A DNA stretch of 64,000 nucleotides. Origin: Psilocybe azurescens (Eukaryota; Basidiomycota; Agaricomycetes; Agaricales; Agrocybaceae). Positions 3,229 through 54,699 of the stretch are shown one piece after another. A model generated the notes under the pieces. The model made no database searches, had not been told where the DNA came from, and was given only the letters and a program-made list of their open reading frames with translations. The DNA is taken from positions 124,001-188,000 of the forward strand of contig JAJIRX010000983.1 in assembly GCA_023853785.1 (NCBI GenBank), written 5' to 3'. A program made the position numbers and the translations under genes. How positions within the stretch are numbered: position 1 is the first letter of the stretch; each line of letters opens with the position of its first letter.

Positions 3229-3273
3229 GTTATATAAGGACCCCGGGCAATGAGAAGTGAGGCCTGATACCAA

Positions 3274-3410
3274 TCCGGACAGATTTTTCAAAAATTTTCA
3301 AAAAGGCCAGGTGCCAATCCGGACAAAATTGAAGATTTTTTGAAAAGGCTAGGTCCCACAATCCAGACGGAAATCATTTCTTAGAATATGGCCAGATCCC
3401 TGGTCCAGAC
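3274..3410 (+). repeat. left subterminal repeat array of the hAT-like element
   Basis: Four copies of TCCRGAC occur at 3274, 3318, 3362 and 3404, spaced 44, 44 and 42 nt. Each is preceded by a GGCYAGRTSCC-like block (the first by the terminal repeat instead) and most are followed by an A/T-rich tail, making a unit of about 43 nt. Such arrays are the usual transposase-binding sites of hAT elements. Confidence 0.75.
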
Positions 3411-4021
3411 AAAAGGCAAATTTGAGATTTATGATTCACAAATTCGAAAACGTCTCAGCATACGTTTATATTTTTATGTACTTTCTCCTCGTCTATTTAC
3501 ACTTGCATGTTATTTTATTTTTTAAGATTTTTTAAGATTTTTCCCAATGAAAAAGTAGTCCCACCGCACTCTAGCCAGTCTTCACTGCTCAGCAATATCA
3601 CTCTCAGGCTTGTCAAGCATAGCTCGGTTACCGAGCCTTTCATCATTTCCGCAATATCTTACATGGTGCAAGTTCAAGTTTTTGAACATATGTATGCTCG
3701 ACAATTCCGCTCTGTTCCAGCCGCTACCGCAATCTTTCAAACTCGTCAATTTCTACTCTCATCAATCAACTTTCTTACACTCCTCGATTACAAGGCAGGC
3801 TCTCAGCATCAACACCAGGCCTCTATTCTCGAGCTCTCGCCTGACGATTTGAACCAATTTTGCACCCTACAAAAAGCCCAGTACGGGATTCAGGAAAAGT
3901 CAGCTATATGTCGTATCTATTACTTTTATGCACTATTTAGACACCTACTCTAACGCCTCGTTTCCTATGTTTTTGAGGCCCCCTGCACCATCTGGAGCAA
4001 TTTTAGGCCTGATCCTACCGA

Positions 4022-4133
4022 TCCGGACAAATTTTAGCAAAAAATAGGCTAGGTCCGTGGTCCAGACAAAATTTGAGAAAATCAGAGGAGGGTAGGTCCA
4101 ATCCGGACAAAATGGCCTACCTTGTGTCCGGAC
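4022..4133 (+). repeat. right subterminal repeat array of the hAT-like element
   Basis: Four further copies of TCCRGAC occur at 4022, 4061, 4102 and 4127, spaced 39, 41 and 25 nt, again linked to GGNTAGGTCC blocks. They lie on the same strand as the left array, so they are direct, not inverted, with respect to it. Confidence 0.75.
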
Positions 4134-4190
4134 GAAAAGTGTGCTTTCTGGATCAGGCCTCACCCCCATTGCCCGGGGTCCTGTTATATA

Positions 4191-33575: not shown

Positions 33576-36500
33576 TTCTAATCGCACTGGACGGCATCCT
33601 TTCTTGTGCTTACGGAATTTTTCTCAATCACTTTTTCTTATTTCATTTCGGCGCATCTGAAGCAGAGAAACTGCCTCATTCTCATATCTACAATCGCAGA
33701 CAATGTTTTTATTATTGGTCTCGAGTATCTTACAGACTGTAGCACGATAGTATCTAGTCCTTCCCACTGTATTTCTAGAATGTTTTCCTGATTACCACAA
33801 GTTGCACAACGTAATAATGCCTAATACTCAATCCGGAACCCCAGTATTGTAGAGAAAGTTTCCCAGTTATTCATACGTACGCCTTGTATCGGCCCCGACT
33901 GTGTACTGTGCACGAGCACTGCGCTTAGTGAAAGGGAGGTAACTCTGAATACCACTTTAACCTTTAACAGATACTAGGATTTGAGCAAGACTAATGCGCA
34001 GGTCATATCTGGAGATAAGAAAGCGAGTCAACCGGATGTAAGTATCCAATGGCAGCTGGACTATTTTACTTCAGCCGTATCCTCAACACAGGATTCAAAA
34101 TCACGGGCTTGAACTAGGGTGACAGGATCTGTCCTTATAAATAGGCTTCTTTCGAAGTTTCTTCCTTGATAAGGTGCTGCAGTGCTCCCTCATCTATTCG
34201 TGTCTCCAAAACTTTAACGCAGTGCTACTCTAACTGTAACCGACTCGTATACACTAAGAGACTCATGATGTATCTCCATCAGTGCTAGAATAAACTAAGG
34301 GTCAAAGATATATTGTGCAGAATGCAGAGCCCTACGTACCATCGCAGTCGTGCGTTGCTATCTTTCACACGTAAAGCACAGGAGGACCGTCGCTATAATA
34401 CCAACTACCGGGATACACGGTTATTCTGAGGTCAAGAGATCTCGTGCCCACTTTGAATAGCAGAGAAAATTTCTGGGATTGATTATGTGTGGGTAATATG
34501 CGTCCACTAAAAGACAGAAAAGGCAGCAGAGATTAATCCAATGTGTGCAAAGCTGTAGAAATGACTTCCCCGGAGTATAACGCTAAGATAAGGACGACCA
34601 TCACTGAAAGGCTGGACTTGGTCTATTTCTAGAGCCGGGATCCCCGCAGACAGAGATTGTAATCAGCCTCCGCCAGTTCAGAGCTGAACCGACAGTTCCG
34701 ACAACCGGCAGGCCAGGCGACTGCGACTGCCTCTGCCTCAACAACATTTCAAAGATGAGCAGCCACAGCTTGGCACCGCTGAGCTGCCCACTTCTAAGTC
34801 ATAACTCGTTATCTAGAGTACGCATGACAAGACCAAACATGACTGACTAATGACATGGCTGACCTATAAACATACAGGTGATGATGAATAGCTGTGGTCC
34901 TGACATGTGTAGATCTGATATCATTGATTGTACATGAAGCACATAGTATTGAATTATCAACCTGTCTTTTGTACGGAAGCGAGATGTTTTGACTGACCTT
35001 TGTTAATCCGTTGCTTAGCGTTCACGATCTCAAATGAAATGGTTAATGAGATTCATTATCATTATACTATGCCTGTGGCATAAATAGTATCTATCATTGA
35101 TCGTATTCTAACCAGCTGCCTGAGCTCGCTTACAACGTCAAAAGGAGGAATCTATTTTAATGACCGGAATAATCGATTCCACAGACCTGGCGCAACTGGC
35201 AGCTAAGGAATGGACGATTGCAACGCATTACCTTGAGAATTACTAGTAACATCTCCGACCAATCGTGAATTCAAACACTATAGTATACATAGCACAGGTG
35301 ACTCTGTTTGCGTATCTGTGGATAGCTTTAGACTCATGCTGCTCCCAAAGCGTGTTATTTAGAGATGCGTTGCGAGATCTAACTTCGGAACGAAAGGTCG
35401 ATATGATTCAAGAGAAGTGATACCTAATGCGAGTGGTACCGAGTTCATTGCTTCCAACGAAGGTCCGACTGATATCTGTATACCTAGTGGTGACACTGTT
35501 AGAGTGATACATGCACATGAAAACAACTCGGCGAAAGCGTAACATACACGGGCTAATACATCGTCTGGAATTTGAAACTACAAAAGGAAACATATTTCGC
35601 TGTATCCGGCTGTGATATCTTTAATAGACGCCAATTAGACGCTCATATCTAACTAACCCGGAACGCGTATTATATCTTTAGTAGACGCCAATTAGACGCC
35701 CATATCTAACTAAACCAGAGCGCGTATTAATTCCACTACTCGGTACACAATAATTGAGATCAGCTAATAGCGGTAATTGTGAAGATGTTTGTCGCATGAA
35801 ACGGCAAATCGTTAGTCACCGGATGCAGCTGGATACGAGCCGCCAAGTTGGTGCTTGATAGAAATCCAATTCCCCAACCCACATAATCGAGTCATCGTTA
35901 TTGAGGCACACACATAAGCGCTTAGACCAAAAGCAGGTTCGTGCGTGCTCCTGCTTCGAAACGGGCCGAGTGATCCGCTTTAATTAGCATTATCTCGAGT
36001 TTTGAAGCCCGAAGCTGCTTGATAACCTTTTTAAAATAAAAAAGAGATATATAGCGAGTCTTTGAGCTTCTTTTGATTGTTTTTTCCGTTAAAAAGGATA
36101 CGGAGAGAATTTAAAGCTTGAGAGTTGCTTGAGATGTTAATCTTGCCACTGAGCTATAAATAGCTACATATGTGAACTGGTGACCACTGACAATCAAATT
36201 GCGGAATCCAGAACGGTAAGCCATCCCCTATGATTGACAAGAGGATGGCCTTATTCTTCGTAATGTCTTTCGGGAATTTTCAATTGGACTCTGTTCGGGC
36301 TGGAGGTATTGTCATTTATCGTGGTCCTATAGCAAAACCGATTCGGGGCATTGATGTACTTATCAGATCCGCCAATTACTACAGAGATTCCAGAGCTGCC
36401 TTTAACGTCAAATCTCACGCAGATCCGGGATGTACATCCCCCGGGTTTGGTGTGTAAATCTTGCTGACGTTCCCTTAAACATGCCGTCTTCCGAGCGCAG

Positions 36501-51487: not shown

Positions 51488-54699
<3,212 letters not shown>

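Follow-up and report, generated by a model that had tools for sequence, protein, structure and literature searches.

A 946-bp mobile element lies at positions 3237–4182 of a 64,000-bp stretch of the Psilocybe azurescens genome (GenBank assembly GCA_023853785.1, contig JAJIRX010000983.1, forward-strand positions 124,001–188,000), which we call the window and from whose first base all positions are counted. The genome comprises 70.4 Mb in 937 contigs, the window being part of contig C846. Inverted repeats and arrays of TCC[G/A]GAC sites at both ends of the element enclose the remnant of a transposase gene, from which the plus-strand orientation of the whole non-autonomous element is taken. An earlier note, made from the sequence alone, had described it as hAT-like. 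We argue here that it is likely a derivative of a fungal transposon of the P superfamily. Best known from animals, P elements serve as a model system in work on transposition, hybrid dysgenesis and genome defence.

Results

An 8-bp target site duplication, GTTATATA (unstranded), brackets the element and is identical at 3229–3236 and 4183–4190, as the earlier note had reported. The element's terminal inverted repeat, AGGACCCCGGGCAATG, is perfect over 16 of 16 bp (3237–3252 on the plus strand, with its complement at 4167–4182 on the minus strand) and continues imperfectly to about 31 bp (to ~3268 on the left and from ~4152 on the right), taking in the block TGAGGCCTGAT; the matching repeats of the earlier note are thus real, but were given one base too short at each end. 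Inside each repeat follow four TCC[G/A]GAC sites on the plus strand, mostly 39–44 bp apart. The left array (3274–3410) has sites starting at 3274, 3318, 3362 and 3404 (spacing 44, 44 and 42 bp; two of four strictly TCCGGAC), and the right array (4022–4133) has starts at 4022, 4061, 4102 and 4127 (spacing 39, 41 and 25 bp; three of four strict), the last within the palindromic GTCCGGAC. Five of the eight sites are therefore strict, and the remaining 63 kb of the window holds, on both strands, only four strict and 17 loose matches. These sites are probably where a transposase binds. No Rfam match was obtained anywhere in the window.

A whole-element search of the genome returned 21 aligned pieces, including six near-full places: the window copy on C846 and five further copies (C188, C713, C779, C109 and C92) with 89–97% identity in that search. 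Counted without gaps, identity among the six is 95.8–99.7%, the window copy being nearest to C188 (99.5%). Relative to C713, the window copy lacks 24 bp between 3418 and 3419 and 42 bp between 3878 and 3879 (both unstranded, from the copy alignment), the latter also missing in C188. All six begin and stop at identical bases and are flanked by perfect 8-bp duplications that differ from copy to copy (GTTATATA, AAGATTGG, CTAGGACT, GGATGTAC, ATCGGAGG and CCTCCACC, read on the contig plus strand); chance alone would give an 8-bp match in roughly one copy in 65,000. An element with these borders is therefore confirmed far beyond chance. Two diverged copies found in pieces, C647 and C168, share 94.9% identity with one another and about 83% with the others; because they have common flanks, we take them as one insertion within duplicated DNA, whose target duplication has become imperfect (six of eight bases agreeing by eye in each). 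The remaining pieces are short matches. The copy count proposed as a check in the earlier note thus turned up further copies, and the interpretation given in that note is partly supported.

The transposase remnant inside the element speaks against that note's further statement that the internal part resembles no transposase. Positions 3582–3914 (plus strand) are 62.5% identical to residues 806–914 of the protein P0022 (E = 2e-28, small local database) and are what is left of the C-terminal coding region of a P-element-like transposase. A stop-free stretch of the C713 copy matched 21 proteins at E ≤ 10, all but one of which reached E ≤ 1.6e-14; none of the 21 has a precomputed Pfam assignment. 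A search admitting longer proteins led to P0022 from Crassisporium funariophilum (924 aa) and P0023 from Psilocybe cyanescens (835 aa), two species of Agaricales. P0011 and P0016 are translations of open reading frames (ORFs) that run through left-end repeats and then into the same transposase gene piece: residues 1–44 of P0011 match positions 30–161 of the C92 element (E = 6e-6), and residues 1–39 of P0016 match positions 73–189 of the C713 element (E = 6e-4; both in the local database), and in P0016 more of the gene survives than in the window element. In a relic on C746 of the genome that holds the window, transposase residues 633–686 are joined to a decayed core, with the part in between deleted. 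The simplest explanation of these joins and of the 8-bp duplication is that a P-superfamily transposon underwent internal deletion.

The wider search found 105 related proteins at E ≤ 0.001 (7,993 candidates scored), and the species names visible among them are ones we take to be Agaricomycetes (two were looked up). A precomputed Ulp1-type protease domain (PF02902, Peptidase_C48) occurs on the same predicted protein in 16 of the 105; rescanning confirmed it in P0025 from Phlegmacium (2e-8) and added P0061 (3e-5), outside the 16. Precomputed Tnp_P_element (PF12017) occurs in one, P0070, which also lies above the cut-off; of 46 relatives, eight match this profile at E ≤ 0.1. The structural model of the homologous protein has the P-type transposase fold, an RNase H domain with a helical insertion, and the DDE residues (placed by order and secondary structure, without residue-level superposition) and the [C/D](2)H motif are conserved in alignment A2. 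Sequence identity of the P0022-type protein to P element transposase and THAP9 is 13% over the aligned core. Residues 785–915 of P0022, which include the piece kept by the window element, are modelled, mostly confidently, as a beta-rich region outside the P transposase match. When the C-terminal piece (P0001) was modelled by itself, AlphaFold gave a poor result (mean predicted local distance difference test score 54.9), which was not used.

Several other families have the AGGACCCC end and TCCGGAC subterminal repeats in common with the window element. Family 2 consists of C511 and C626 (duplications CATGTCCT and TCCCCTGC) and the broken copies C299 and C453, which have common flanks, and family 3 of the 207-bp C594 (duplication GGCCTCCT) and the partial copies C30 and C429; both, as read, are without the core of the window element. 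The 8-bp duplication typical of the P superfamily is thus present in all six near-full copies and, by eye, in the sister copies C511, C626 and C594. Family 4 has the ends (A)GGACCCCTGACATATGGC, the leading A seen only where the AGGACCCC..TCCGGAC pattern matches, and measures about 0.51–0.53 kb; both ends were found at nine places (C428, C477, two on C510, C634, C636, C797, C103 and C798, with C797, C103 and C798 slightly changed at one end), and C745 shows one end. A presumed family 5 is suggested by the positions of a repeat pair common to eight places; at six of them (C228, C431, C540, C746, C788 and C489) a same-strand AGGACCCC..TCCGGAC end lies 0.6–0.8 kb from the repeat pair, or about 7 kb at C489. 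Inside the family 2 elements (L020:1650–1735 on C511, and L025 on C626) there is a stretch resembling transfer RNA (tRNA), with boxes like GTGGCAGAGTGG and AGTTCGAACCT, in which ARAGORN called no tRNA; 53-bp stretches at C905 and C852 are 85% like it.

End sequences were also searched for across the genome against reversed controls. The pattern AGGACCCC..TCCGGAC occurred at 42 places (control, 3), eight of them without family assignment (C434, C438, C471, C506, C569, C630, C656 and C937), the 16-bp end with up to two mismatches at 36 (reversed-pattern control, 6), AGGACCCCGG..TCCGGAC at 22 (control, 3) and TCCGGAC pairs at 48 (control, 13). Matches to AGGACCCCNNNNNATRGC with one mismatch (103; control, 72) are largely chance, as are about half of those to the family 4 end with up to three mismatches (63; control, 30). 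These searches yielded more short elements and no long coding element, and in place of an autonomous element that has these ends and encodes the transposase, only the mosaic ORFs P0011 and P0016 and the C746 relic were seen. Two candidate partners were dropped: an inverted pair 5.2 kb apart on C631, by eye an inverted duplicate of a GAPDH-like gene (L090, G000:C631:88900–94280, pieces ~5 kb apart), and a single end on C750 for which no second end was seen. The presumed family 5 element at C489:59657–66699 spans ~7 kb instead of 0.6–0.8 kb; its inner part (L057) resembles, by eye, a nested DIRS-type retroelement, and two ORFs tested there had no Pfam match. Scanning IMG/VR with P0022 and with A2 turned up no relative; the end pattern occurred in at least 120 stretches there, the 80 listed having one match each, which we took as chance.

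Gene content around the element looks fungal. An Arg5,6-type gene at 51819–54218 (minus strand) has amino acid kinase, NAT and semialdehyde dehydrogenase domains across three adjacent ORFs, and a 57-bp unit stands in two tandem copies, 91% alike, at 35615–35729. Genome-wide, at least 170 matches to KDZ transposase domains (150 of 256 candidates scored) compare with 20 to the hAT dimerisation domain.

Discussion

The ends, the duplications, the copy family, the homology of the core to a transposase and the P-type fold of the homologue's model make it likely that the element derives by internal deletion from a fungal DNA transposon of the P superfamily, is non-autonomous and is moved in trans. 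Terminal inverted repeats together with subterminal repeats are likewise a feature of the P superfamily. We infer internal deletion rather than capture, binding at the TCCGGAC sites and a supply of transposase in trans. In the ancestor, inverted repeats beginning AGGACCCC would have enclosed a P0022-like transposase gene (~900 aa), with about four TCC[G/A]GAC sites inside each end. Nearly the entire gene would then have been lost, leaving its last coding part, the stretch downstream of it and both ends. A transposase made elsewhere in the genome may bind the subterminal sites, pair both ends, excise the element and reinsert it at a target cut with an 8-bp stagger, the repair of which would give the 8-bp duplication.

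Several results weigh against this account. Among the 46 relatives, 38 have no Tnp_P_element match at E ≤ 0.1, and P0022 (14.2 bits) and P0099 (19.9 bits) are both under the cut-off of 23. Searched with a profile built from 53 relatives, Protein Data Bank sequences gave no P transposase at E ≤ 1. Foldseek alone gave no match at E ≤ 0.001, with Hermes, a hAT transposase, on top at 2.5e-3, and P transposase is not among the 50 matches listed, beyond which other families may still match. No THAP domain was seen among the seven families listed for the 46 relatives, many of whose N-termini may be incomplete. Lastly, the genome yielded no autonomous copy bounded by these ends, where comparison with the transposase itself covered the window and 91 loci and was not made genome-wide.

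Were the element a hAT-type miniature inverted-repeat transposable element (MITE), moved by a hAT transposase, its core would be a chance or captured sequence. The 8-bp duplication, the short inverted repeats and the lack of an intact gene are as in hAT MITEs, the genome does hold hAT dimerisation domains (the 20 matches above), and Hermes came first, if weakly, by fold. However, hAT duplications follow the consensus nTnnnnAn and hAT ends the motif YARNG; the nine duplications have the right length but none fits the consensus, all six near-full copies have AGGAC as their end motif, and the core is P-like rather than akin to a hAT transposase. We therefore depart from the hAT-like label of the earlier note and hold this origin to be very unlikely. 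A non-autonomous KDZ element (Zisupton or Dileera) is improbable too, despite the abundance of KDZ in this genome and the 8-bp duplications that PMC12730594 gives for Zisupton and a Dileera-lineage element among the KDZ of Agaricomycetes. The two Kyakuja families described there differ from the window element in having 7-bp duplications and no inverted repeats (PMC12730594). At 30 KDZ loci with flanks of up to ~1.5 kb (most ends probably lying beyond), neither AGGACCCCGGGCAAT within three substitutions nor CCGGACAAA occurred, and PF18758 and other KDZ Pfam domains are absent at E ≤ 0.1 from the 46 relatives of the core protein.

Gene capture, in which a MITE of another superfamily acquired part of a P-like transposase gene (a Pack-type element), deserves more weight and is nevertheless unlikely. 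Sister families have the ends in common while families 2 and 3 are without this core, and no intact P-like element with these ends was found at the loci compared. Yet what the element has kept is the final stretch of the coding region, oriented and ordered as expected after an internal deletion; in P0016 the same left-end repeats precede a longer part of this gene; and the length of the duplication agrees with the P superfamily. Deleted P (KP) elements of Drosophila reportedly have a proposed repressor role, and the core might likewise be kept as a gene for a short repressor peptide, given stop-free stretches of 172–207 aa in five of the six near-full copies (115 aa in C92). But the core is as variable as the flanks (window copy versus C713, 6 differences in 276 positions against 8 in 364 and 6 in 303), and its variable codons comprise six synonymous and ten non-synonymous ones, so there is no sign of retention as coding sequence; such a role is extremely unlikely.

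As a P-superfamily derivative, the element compares closely with deleted P elements of Drosophila melanogaster, which likewise have lost most of the transposase gene and, according to PMC7776569, have an 8-bp duplication and inverted repeats with separate internal sites. It differs from them in its AGGACCCC end, its perfect repeats of 16 rather than 31 bp, its roughly four TCC[G/A]GAC sites per end and its fungal host. THAP domains are limited to animals according to PMC7776569. The fungal proteins differ from P transposase and THAP9 in that no THAP was found, some carry a Ulp1-type protease and the C-terminal region is modelled as beta-rich; the lack of any KDZ match among the 46 relatives sets them apart from KDZ.

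Listings of papers on P elements and fungi showed no description of such a lineage, and neither end sequence occurs there as a word; most subscription papers and Repbase lay outside this scope, so a prior description is possible. We lean towards the view that mushroom-forming fungi carry a widespread, largely unannotated P-superfamily lineage without THAP, in some members fused to a Ulp1-type protease, that recognises TCCGGAC arrays at both ends and gave rise to about five AGGACCCC-end MITE families in this genome. The subterminal array together with a fungal P transposase would offer a test. If true, a P catalytic core across Agaricomycetes without THAP would mean that this core pairs with other DNA-binding solutions, and many mushroom ‘hypothetical proteins’ and MITEs with 8-bp target site duplications would be renamed.
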